From Serratia silvae (GTDB lineage Bacteria > Pseudomonadota > Gammaproteobacteria > Enterobacterales > Enterobacteriaceae): 64,000 nt of DNA. A model generated the notes under the pieces. The model made no database searches. It was not told where the DNA came from and saw only the letters and a program-made list of their open reading frames with translations. Numbering within the stretch: the stretch's first letter is position 1; the number at the start of each line of letters is the position of its first letter. The position numbers and the translations under genes were made by a program. The stretch covers positions 1 to 64,000 of the forward strand of contig NZ_JAGQDC010000022.1 in assembly GCF_023282985.1 (NCBI RefSeq). Reading direction: 5' to 3'. Positions 60,600 through 64,000 of the stretch are shown here, piece after piece.

Positions 60600-62192
60600 T
60601 CAGTTGATACCCTGGCTACGCAGATAGTCTTCGTAGTTGCCGGTAAAGTCGATCACCTTGTTCGGCGTCATTTCCAGAACGCGAGTGGCCAGCGAGCTAA
60701 CGAACTCACGGTCGTGGGAAACGAAGATCAGAGTACCTTCGTACATTTCCAACGCCATGTTCAGTGACTCGATGGATTCCATATCCATGTGGTTGGTCGG
60801 TTCATCCATGATCAGGATATTTGGACGCTGCATCATGATCTTGCCGAACAGCATACGGCCCTTCTCACCACCGGACAGCACTTTTACGCGCTTCTTGATA
60901 TCGTCCTGGCTGAACAACAGGCGACCAAGAATGCTACGTACCGCCTGCTCATCGTCTTTTTCCTGCTTCCACTGGCTCATCCAATCGAACACGCTCAGGG
61001 TTTCATCGAACTCGTATTCGTGATCCTGTGCGTAGTAACCGATCTTGGCGTTTTCCGACCATTTCACGCTGCCGTTATCCGGCTGTAGGTCACCGACCAG
61101 CGTTTTCAACAGGGTGGATTTACCGATACCGTTGGCACCCAGGATCGCCACCTTCTCGCCCACTTCAACCATCAGGTTGAGTTTGCTGAACAGAGGGCCG
61201 TTGTCGAAGCCTTTGGCCAGCGCTTCCACTTCCAGCGCGTTACGGAACAGCTTCTTGTCCTGCTCAAAACGGATGAACGGATTCTGACGGCTGGAGGCTT
61301 TCACCTCTTCCAGCTGGATCTTGTCGATCTGACGGGCACGAGAGGTCGCCTGCTTGGACTTTGAGGCGTTGGCACTGAAGCGACTAACGAAGGACTGCAA
61401 TTCGTTAATCTGCGCCTTCTTCTTGGCGTTGTCAGACATCAGGCGTTCACGAGCCTGAGTAGCCGCCGTCATATATTCGTCGTAGTTACCTGGGTAGACA
61501 CGCAGTTCGCCGTAGTCCAGATCCGCCATGTGGGTACAAACCATGTTCAGGAAGTGACGGTCGTGCGAAATGATGATCATGGTGCTGTTACGTTCGTTCA
61601 GCACCTGCTCCAGCCAACGAATGGTATCGATGTCCAGGTTGTTCGTTGGTTCGTCGAGCAGCAGGATTTCCGGATCGGAGAACAGGGCCTGAGCCAACAG
61701 GACACGCAGTTTGAAGCCGGGAGCGATCTCGCTCATCGGGCCATAATGCTGTTCTACCGGGATACCCACGCCGAGCAGCAACTCACCGGCTCGTGCTTCT
61801 GCGGTGTAGCCGTCCATCTCGCCATAGGCCACTTCCAGGTCGGCCACTTTATAGCCGTCTTCTTCGCTCATCTCCGCCATGGCGTAGATGCGGTCACGCT
61901 CTTCCTTCACCGCCCACAGTTCAGTGTGGCCCATGATCACGGTGTCCAGCACGCTGAACTGTTCAAAAGCGAACTGATCCTGGCGCAGTTTACCCAGGCG
62001 CTCGTTCGGATCCAGGAACACGTTACCGCCGCTCGGCGCCAGATCGCCACCGAGGATTTTCATGAACGTCGATTTACCGCAGCCGTTGGCTCCGATCAGA
62101 CCATAGCGGTTACCGCCGCCAAATTTGACAGAGATGTTTTCAAACAACGGCTTACTGCCGAACTGCATAGTGATATTGTTACTTAATAGCAA
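60600..62192 (-). CDS. ybiT: ABC-F family ATPase YbiT
   Basis: This 530-residue soluble protein has two ABC domains without membrane segments and matches E. coli YbiT (530) throughout. The first domain has [19 protein letters not shown] and [21 protein letters not shown] charged linker follows ([20 protein letters not shown] is part of it). The second domain has [35 protein letters not shown] and [23 protein letters not shown] proteins act on the ribosome to resolve stalled translation. The start that aligns with E. coli is a TTG at 62190-62192; an ATG eight codons in is possible. Only 38 bp separate it from a recombinase gene. Confidence 0.93.
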
Positions 62193-62230
62193 AGGATATA
62201 CTCTTATAGAAACGTGATTTTGGACACATT
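62193..62230. other. Likely junction of an integrated element with the ybiT 5' region
   Basis: The core gene ybiT and a serine recombinase gene start back to back with only 38 bp between them. Large serine integrases normally lie beside their attachment site, so the left junction (attL) is expected here or slightly inside ybiT. The exact crossover cannot be fixed without the right end. Upstream of the ybiT TTG there is no clear Shine-Dalgarno sequence. Confidence 0.4.
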
Positions 62231-63745
62231 ATGCCACAACAGAACAACGGGATCGCCTACAGTTATGTTCGCTTTTCAAGCAAGCGGCAAGAATTGGGTG
62301 ACAGCCTGCGCAGACAGACGGAAATGGCTGAAGATTACGCCACCAAAAATGGCCTGAAACTCTCCAGCAAAAACTTTCAGGATCTTGGTATCAGTGCCTT
62401 TCGTGAGGGTAAACGTGCCTCTCTTGTAGACATGCTTGCAGCCATCGAAGAAGGCCAGATCAGCGCAGGTTCAACAATCATTATAGAAGCACTAGATCGC
62501 CTTTCACGACGAGGTATTGATGCCACTCTGGAAACGGTCAAAGAAATTCTTCGCAAAGAAGTTCAGGTCGTCAGTCTGTCTGATGGTTTGCTACTAACCA
62601 AAAGCAGTCTTAACGATCTACAAAGCGTTATCCGTATCGCCGTAGCTGCCGATCTCGCCCATAAAGAATCGGAACGAAAAGCTGTACGTCTAAGAGAAAC
62701 CAAAGGCCAACAACGGCAAGCCGCACTGGCTGGTAAACCCATCAATAAAGTTTTGCCCTTTTGGTTGCAACGCACTACCGATGGGTATGAACTTGGCGAC
62801 AAAGCCGAGATTGCCAGGCAAATCGTCCGTCTCAAGCAGGAAGGCAAAGGTAGTAACATGATTGCCAAAACGCTTAATAAGCAAGGCACTGCTGGCATCC
62901 GTGCTTCTCAGTGGAATCATGCATCAATAACCAAAATGTTAAAAAACCCTGCTTTATATGGTGCATATCAAACTGGTGAAACGACTAAAGAAAGGGAGCT
63001 AGTCAAACTTGATTTAGTTGAAGGATACTACCCTTCCCTGATCAGCAAAGAGGATTGGCTGTTACTTCAATCAGACCAAAGCAAATCCAAACGGGGACGC
63101 CGTAGTGCTGATAACCCTTATAGCGGACTATTACGCTGTGAATGTGGTGGCGCATTAATAAAAAGAAAACACACCGTAAAAGGAAAACTGTACGTTTATC
63201 ACGGATGCTTGAATGCTAAAGATGGTCGGTGCTCGCAAAACATTTCAATCAAAGGATTAGATGGTGCGTTAACTACTATTCTTGGTCGGTTAGAGTTCAA
63301 GAAAAAACCTTCACTCGACCAGTCAATCCATCAGGAAAGGCAACTACTTGAAAAGCGCATTAGCGATCTGAATAGTAAACTACAAACTCTGGACAACATT
63401 CCTCTGTCTGTAATCAAAAGCATCGGTACAATGGAAAATAGAGTAAAGGAAATTACCGAGCAGATTACAAAAGATGCGCGAGAACAGCGTGGCATTGACG
63501 CAGTTCAAAATGAGAAACTCTCTAGCATTACTGATGGCTTAGAGCTAAACCTTTTGCTAAAAAGGGTACTGAAAAACATTACCGTCACTCGTTCAGGAAA
63601 CGGATGGGTCGTAAAGATTCTTCACCTTTCAGGCCATAAGCAGAATTTCTTAATGGTTGATGGTGAAATCAAGTTTATGAGTGATACCATTGCACTACAG
63701 AAGCTATTGGCTGGATTCCGTGTAGAGGAAGAAACAGCAAAGTAA
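62231..63745 (+). CDS. Large serine recombinase (integrase-type)
   Basis: This is a 504-residue site-specific recombinase. The N-terminal resolvase-type catalytic domain (residues 10-150) shows YSYVRFSSKRQELGDSLRRQ, with the Ser nucleophile at residue 16 or 17, and IIIEALDRLSRRGIDATLET. The recombinase domain follows at about 180-285 (LKQEGKGSNMIAKTLNKQGT). A zinc ribbon then reads LLRCECGGALIKRK with HGCLNAKDGRC near 305-335. A coiled-coil stretch (about 360-410) ends in a C-terminal tail. Such proteins integrate and excise phages and islands at att sites. It abuts ybiT and precedes a second recombinase gene. The ribosome site (GGA) is weak. Confidence 0.88.
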   Translation: MPQQNNGIAYSYVRFSSKRQELGDSLRRQTEMAEDYATKNGLKLSSKNFQDLGISAFREGKRASLVDMLAAIEEGQISAGSTIIIEALDRLSRRGIDATLETVKEILRKEVQVVSLSDGLLLTKSSLNDLQSVIRIAVAADLAHKESERKAVRLRETKGQQRQAALAGKPINKVLPFWLQRTTDGYELGDKAEIARQIVRLKQEGKGSNMIAKTLNKQGTAGIRASQWNHASITKMLKNPALYGAYQTGETTKERELVKLDLVEGYYPSLISKEDWLLLQSDQSKSKRGRRSADNPYSGLLRCECGGALIKRKHTVKGKLYVYHGCLNAKDGRCSQNISIKGLDGALTTILGRLEFKKKPSLDQSIHQERQLLEKRISDLNSKLQTLDNIPLSVIKSIGTMENRVKEITEQITKDAREQRGIDAVQNEKLSSITDGLELNLLLKRVLKNITVTRSGNGWVVKILHLSGHKQNFLMVDGEIKFMSDTIALQKLLAGFRVEEETAK

Positions 63746-63807
63746 ATTAACTAACAATATGTATTTCCTCCTATCTGCAAGATATAATTTACAGAAAGGA
63801 GGAAAAC

Positions 63808-64000
63808 ATGACAATTTTTGCTTATACAAGAGTATCCAAGGCCGATAACGAAACCGGCACTACCGATAACCAAATCACGCTTATTGAATCGCAGTTAAAG
63901 ATCGATACCATTTACTCTGATGTTAACATCTCAGGTTCGATAGCTTTCCAGAAACGTCCAGAAGCACAAAAGTTAGTCAATGAATTAAAACCCGGCGATA
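63808..64000 (+). CDS. Serine recombinase, Pin/Gin invertase-like, 5' part only
   Basis: The first 64 codons of a second serine recombinase are visible before the window ends. It reads TIFAYTRVSKADNETGTTDN, with the catalytic Ser in TRVSKADNET near residue 9, then a short helix and strand ending near AQKLVNELKPGD. This N-terminus is more like small invertase/resolvase proteins (about 190 residues) than like its larger neighbour. The ribosome site AAAGGAGG is near perfect. It lies 62 bp after the integrase-type gene. Whether it acts in DNA inversion or in excision of the same element cannot be said. Confidence 0.75.
   Translation, partial: MTIFAYTRVSKADNETGTTDNQITLIESQLKIDTIYSDVNISGSIAFQKRPEAQKLVNELKPGD

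Follow-up and report, generated by a model that had tools for sequence, protein, structure and literature searches.

A defence island in codons 7-8 of Serratia silvae ybiT with a serine integrase and an arm that probably rebuilds the start of the gene

Overview

The DNA that follows ybiT at the right edge of the window (the whole stretch of 64,000 nucleotides analysed) very probably belongs to a defence island of about 12 kb, whose large serine integrase would cross over in codons 7-8 of ybiT, whose arm would rebuild the start of the gene and whose other side would hold a cargo slot. In the proposed mechanism the integrase would recombine attP with an attB formed by the first codons of ybiT, with the crossover in GTGA, and after integration the native start and promoter of ybiT would lie at the far end of the element (attR). 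The element arm now joined to the gene would provide a TTG start, in-frame codons 1-7 and a Shine-Dalgarno-like AAGAG; in Serratia-type elements the arm would also bring a copy of the -10 region of ybiT. In this way a full-length, probably expressed YbiT would be kept, which would make the insertion tolerable to the host. The integrase, Rec2, a tandem hairpin array and small secreted or regulatory genes would form a constant backbone, and the right arm would be a slot in which the defence cassette varies between islands; in this one it comprises XRE, HamA, HamB, a PIN-domain protein and a 311-aa protein. The insertion itself, both att ends, the empty sites, the cargo and the coding constraint on the arm were read directly from the DNA; movement of the island between cells is something we infer. 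The features concerned are as follows.

60600-62192, minus strand: ybiT (ABC-F ATPase), a hybrid whose codons 1-7 come from the element and whose remainder is host DNA; the TTG start occupies 62190-62192 (ORF; congeners' empty sites; 19 loci)
62170-62173, no strand: GTGA, putative crossover region, shared by attB and attP (attL) (comparison of attL, attB and attR)
62172-62192, minus strand: element-supplied ybiT codons 1-7, TTG CTA TTA AGT AAC AAT ATC (in frame in 19 of 19 elements)
62201-62205, minus strand: Shine-Dalgarno-like AAGAG upstream of the TTG, spaced as the AAGAG of the native Serratia gene (sequence; putative function)
62211-62240, minus strand: copy-like match to the native ybiT extended -10 region (TGGCATAATG...AAATCACRTT), directed towards ybiT (score against shuffles)
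62231-63745, plus strand: large serine integrase, 504 aa, with resolvase domain, recombinase domain and zinc ribbon (ORF, Pfam, PHROGs, alignment)
63808-64000, plus strand: small serine recombinase Rec2, 213 aa, continuing to contig position 64449 (Pfam Resolvase, full protein E = 9.4e-32)
Contig C23 of the same genome (G000), 64634-64893 (L005:4634-4893): tandem array, units with an extended -10 box and two covarying hairpins

Insertion site and ends of the element

The initial annotation had taken this DNA for the left end of a mobile element and had proposed to extend it to the right, find the att repeat and compare the locus with an empty site in relatives. Beyond the window, contig C23 runs on to 66201 and carries, past the integrase, Rec2, the array, a 218-aa gene, a 75-aa gene and an IS3-type edge, ending within the IS copy. 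The right end was located around position 6868 of contig C98 by querying the genome itself with the empty-site flank. There a matching attR, GAAACAACATTGTGATGTTGTTAGTGC (L031:6861), adjoins cynR and agrees with the empty sites of two congeners (G001 and G002). Uninterrupted ybiT upstream regions were found in five of the six other genomes of the genus (five of seven when our own is counted), and one, G005, carries the same element at 98% identity. The proposal of a mobile element is thereby borne out, and the recombinase genes are not fixed beside ybiT in relatives: besides the five Serratia genomes, 5312 of the 5372 E. coli genomes with the locus (about 99%) show an uninterrupted ybiT-ldtB junction, the other 60 being without a match. 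The congeners have the gene order ybiT, one or two small genes, cynR, cynT, where our genome has ybiT, island, cynR, and the identity of their empty sites with the window stops at 62181. The longer alignments of G004 and G006 were considered as integrase and rejected, as both run on into the native upstream region.

Alignment of attL (window), attR (C98 and contig C66 of G005) and attB (G001, G002 and G003) gave GTGATRTTGTTA as the att stretch shared in Serratia. The attB and attP of E. coli differ more, and GTGA is the only stretch common to all att sequences; the crossover was therefore placed in GTGA, which corresponds to codons 7-8 of ybiT, with GT at 62170-62171 as the likely core dinucleotide judging from symmetry. 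The attP of the excision circle is predicted to be AACATTGTGATATTGTTACTTAATAG. Since attL and attR share only a short core and the empty attB is present both in congeners and in E. coli, the site has the arrangement by which serine-integrase insertions are recognised. The insertion had been described as lying at the start codon of ybiT. Its adjacency to the gene stands, but the element sits inside it: host ybiT ends at codon 7-8, and the TTG and first codons are borne by the element.

In our genome the element is split over C23 and C98, and its middle was reconstructed from relatives. The S. inhibens locus (L037) is contiguous across the break: at one and the same point of its sequence the match to C23 ends (65998) and that to C98 begins (position 78), and the contig ends bear IS ends (TGACCTGC...GCAGGTCA) with ATCC flanking both sides. 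The missing middle is therefore most simply one IS copy, and the size of about 12 kb corresponds to an island of about 10.6 kb plus one IS3-type copy. A candidate att copy at C90:197207 was rejected because the window sequence that it resembles, 62067-62102, codes for the conserved ATP-binding part of the protein; it most likely belongs to a paralogous ABC gene. In G002 the region upstream of ybiT is present a second time, together with an orphan attR, about 1.3 kb from the intact native ybiT start (L035:3079); this is probably the scar of a lost island.

The large serine integrase

The ORF starting 38 bp from ybiT had been called an integrase-type serine recombinase, and ORF, Pfam and PHROG analysis agree on this. 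It matches PF00239 (Resolvase, 1.4e-18), PF07508 (Recombinase, 1.3e-19) and the PHROG 'integrase' (E = 3.2e-69), as well as PF13408 (Zn_ribbon_recom) at 4e-4, below the cut-off of that family. The protein thus shows the N-terminal resolvase domain, recombinase domain, zinc ribbon and length of about 450-700 aa by which we defined large serine recombinases. The YxRxS and DRLSR motifs are kept in the alignment of homologues, and the enzyme is presumably active.

Homologues of the integrase adjoin ybiT in all eight named genome records found, in E. coli, and in four of six viral contigs, the remaining two of which begin at the integrase. Among free phages, only relatives of 29-30% identity, of the YbcK type, were found. 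One genome (G156; L048, L068) holds a second integrase copy (77%) that sits in front of an rlmF-like gene and likewise at a TCAC/GTGA motif; this is a secondary attachment site, breaking beside the GTGA motif.

The rebuilt 5' end of ybiT

In all 19 occupied loci, covering seven named genera and viral contigs, the TTG and six further codons in the ybiT frame are borne by the element, and AAGAG or a similar AG-rich stretch lies upstream of the TTG in the occupied loci read. Pairwise comparison of codons 2-7 in eight distinct arms gave 70 synonymous against 19 nonsynonymous differences, a synonymous fraction of 0.787 where column shuffles led us to expect 0.222; none of 2000 shuffles reached the observed value, a figure that is not a strict probability because the arms are related by descent, although the contrast between frames is large. 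The other two frames gave 3 against 76 and 0 against 79 synonymous versus nonsynonymous differences. Such mostly synonymous change in the ybiT frame requires that the element-borne codons be translated. The arm is also the recognition site of the integrase and is constrained as such, but a recognition function by itself gives no reason for changes to be synonymous in one particular frame.

This bears on the alternative that the element silences ybiT. The gene would then be cut from its promoter, the in-frame arm would be a mere by-product of the integrase recognition site, and YbiT would be absent until excision, as in an element-controlled switch. The native promoter is indeed displaced to the far end, and a consensus scan of 62150-62450 found no sigma-70-type promoter; the same scan is also blank towards ybiT at the native E. 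coli site, however, and hence uninformative. The arm was also compared directly with the native promoter region. The match of the arm to the extended -10 region scored 30 against a shuffle mean of 14.5 (0 of 500 shuffles), and resemblance to the native Serratia ybiT promoter region was found in all four Serratia-type elements. When both native regions were used, the shuffles gave 0/500 for our element and those of S. inhibens and Symbiopectobacterium, and 1/500 and 0/500 for that of G156. The same comparison revealed no such copy in the E. coli-type elements, which form another clade, and this point speaks for silencing. Considering the synonymous pattern of codons 2-7, we regard silencing as improbable and favour the rebuilding of a functional ybiT start. 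As to production of YbiT from the island end, the case is strong at the level of translation but weaker at that of transcription, for which the arm is a putative promoter.

This arrangement would explain how a serine integrase can have its site in the first codons of a conserved, ribosome-associated gene that is not evidently lost. It also yields a simple test on sequence alone: other islands can be examined for target rebuilding by asking whether their att arm varies synonymously. In Leclercia NCTC13032 the ybiT beside the element (L043:8367-9957) is frameshifted near codon 473, which may be a sequencing or assembly error or a loss of function.

Cargo and occupied relatives

The cargo arm on C98 encodes a 162-aa backbone protein, an XRE regulator, HamA, HamB, a PIN_12 protein and a 311-aa protein. 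Adjacent full-length hamA (DUF1837; L031:1023-1931) and hamB (helicase; L031:1915-4446) were recognised by PADLOC with E values of 4.5e-118 and 9.4e-279, and by these matches the island carries the Hachiman anti-phage system. The 311-aa protein (L031:5766-6701), next to attR, was matched by none of Pfam, PHROGs, NCBIfam and PADLOC; because it lies in the cargo slot, its gene is a candidate for a defence function.

Same-site relatives in six other genera hold Lamassu, restriction-modification or other defence genes, or whole prophages. The sister element of G005 has LmuB and LmuC at the place taken here by Hachiman, the E. coli islands carry two kinds of type II methylase and nuclease-like pairs, the Erwinia island another restriction-modification pair and the Leclercia island genes of the candidate system PDC-M60. 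In E. coli, 58 genomes have DNA similar to the integrase region and 53 an island-type integrase. The conjecture that the cargo beyond the window would be a defence or phage island was thus correct on both counts, for our copy carries Hachiman and its same-site relatives are defence islands or 35-kb prophages.

The latter were seen in E. coli PSS-15 and 2021CK-01361, where a related integrase at the same site is accompanied by terminase, portal and tail genes. The ancestor may therefore have been a phage, and our element could be an ordinary prophage remnant to which defence genes were later added by chance. We consider this highly unlikely. The small islands are without structural phage genes, and no terminase, capsid or packaging genes were found among the scanned proteins of our own; they share a backbone (Rec2, array, XRE and small genes) that is absent from the prophages and recurs in dusC together with a different serine integrase, and defence cassettes occupy the same slot in several hosts. 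Relaxase or conjugation families were not found among the proteins of either island arm. As a separate observation, islands of four hosts (L037:14898-17199, L041, L042 and L055) share the same methylase and a partner of about 300 aa with no family match, which may be an unrecognised restriction enzyme.

Comparison with known elements

SCC elements are chromosomal cassettes with variable cargo that are moved by the large serine recombinases CcrA and CcrB. The ybiT island differs from them in host phylum and site, and Ccr models were among the weak matches, with 49 against 900 bits, far under the Ccr family cut-offs. The integrases of the dusA islands are tyrosine recombinases, a family distinct from the serine integrase at ybiT, where in addition the coding constraint on the supplied codons was measured. 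The nearest precedents are these dusA islands and SXT in prfC. The dusA islands and prophages enter a conserved RNA-modification gene at its 5' end, for which they substitute sequence of their own that brings a replacement beta strand and putative promoters (Farrugia et al. 2015, PMC4482086). The SXT/R391 ICEs in prfC use a tyrosine recombinase (PMC2791158) and are conjugative elements of about 100 kb, in contrast to the small ybiT island without conjugation genes.

Large serine recombinases were surveyed by Durrant et al. 2022 (PMC10083194), most having one to three target genes. The enzyme class is the same, but the targets are described there as disrupted, whereas the ybiT reading frame is rebuilt here; ybiT is not named in the main text of that survey. 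Hochhauser et al. 2023 (PMC10121019) described integrase-only defence islands at E. coli hotspots. The ybiT island resembles them in its small size, in its integrase and recombinase genes, in its defence cargo, which in their islands too includes Hachiman, and in showing no known transfer genes. Neither ybiT, ldtB nor dusC is named in the main text of that paper, though the site may be among its 41 hotspots, and no use of ybiT as an integration site was apparent in the main texts of the papers searched. The defence island itself is thus of a known kind, and what appears to be new is the target-rebuilding serine-integrase site with a recombinase-linked array.

Rec2, the tandem array and sister islands in dusC

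The last ORF of the window, truncated by its end, had been described as a second, smaller serine recombinase, and the complete protein on the contig, with its Resolvase domain, agrees with this. By Pfam and PHROGs Rec2 is an enzyme of the resolvase/invertase type, and it has the resolvase catalytic domain expected of a Tn3-type enzyme; the catalytic residues are conserved, and identity to our copy is 63-85% across elements. On its 3' side and on the same strand lies an array of 1-5 tandem units of 122-139 bp each, a candidate res site, which is also found at L055, L056, L030, L040-L043, L065, L066 and L070 and has 2, 3 and 5 copies in three E. coli strains. Each unit consists of an extended -10 box (TGnTATAATG), about 60 variable bases and two hairpins. 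All 150 pair cells of the hairpins are standard, 20 of them changed on both sides, and slid controls fall short of this. An Rfam search gave no match, and among the matches listed, the only antisense targets of the units within the element were the units themselves. Among 392 genomes of the family, the array RNA model and Rec2 match the same three, and Rec2 was not found at 1e-40 in the sampled genomes of Gammaproteobacteria outside the family.

In two E. coli islands the backbone identity of 97-98% ends 13 bp upstream of the rec2 start; from there to 45 bp before attR the islands differ, so that cargo turnover borders on Rec2. A possible part of Rec2 in this turnover is made less likely by the Serratia-type elements, in which Rec2 adjoins the integrase while the cargo begins farther to the right, past the 162-aa gene. 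Our best guess is that Rec2 and the array may act in site-specific resolution or in cassette exchange at the 5' end of Rec2. It is rather unlikely that the units are new structured small RNA genes working with Rec2, for example to control or direct the exchange of defence cassettes at the Rec2-cargo boundary. Resolvase res sites are close in length to 122-139 bp, the array always adjoins Rec2 and its hairpins are also palindromes in DNA, and the units could thus be recombination or binding sites for Rec2 rather than RNA genes. This is a possible reading that we hold only tentatively, as the loops are of RNA type (a CUUG tetraloop and a GNA triloop), the centre of the first palindrome shifts from 2 to 3 bases, the extended -10 box has a fixed position in each unit and no palindrome was seen at the candidate crossover point. 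In either case a recombinase-linked structured array absent from Rfam has now been exposed.

Rec2 and the array also occur with another serine integrase in dusC, namely in two of the three Rec2-positive genomes of the family and in E. coli LR-29-1. The ybiT and dusC islands would form a modular defence-island family in Enterobacterales with two sites and interchangeable cassettes, useful in the search for new defence genes among the cargo. The dusC islands (L065, L066 and L070) carry a whole dusC copy, and their cargo comprises a retron type, Lamassu, dCTP deaminase and HamB-like genes.
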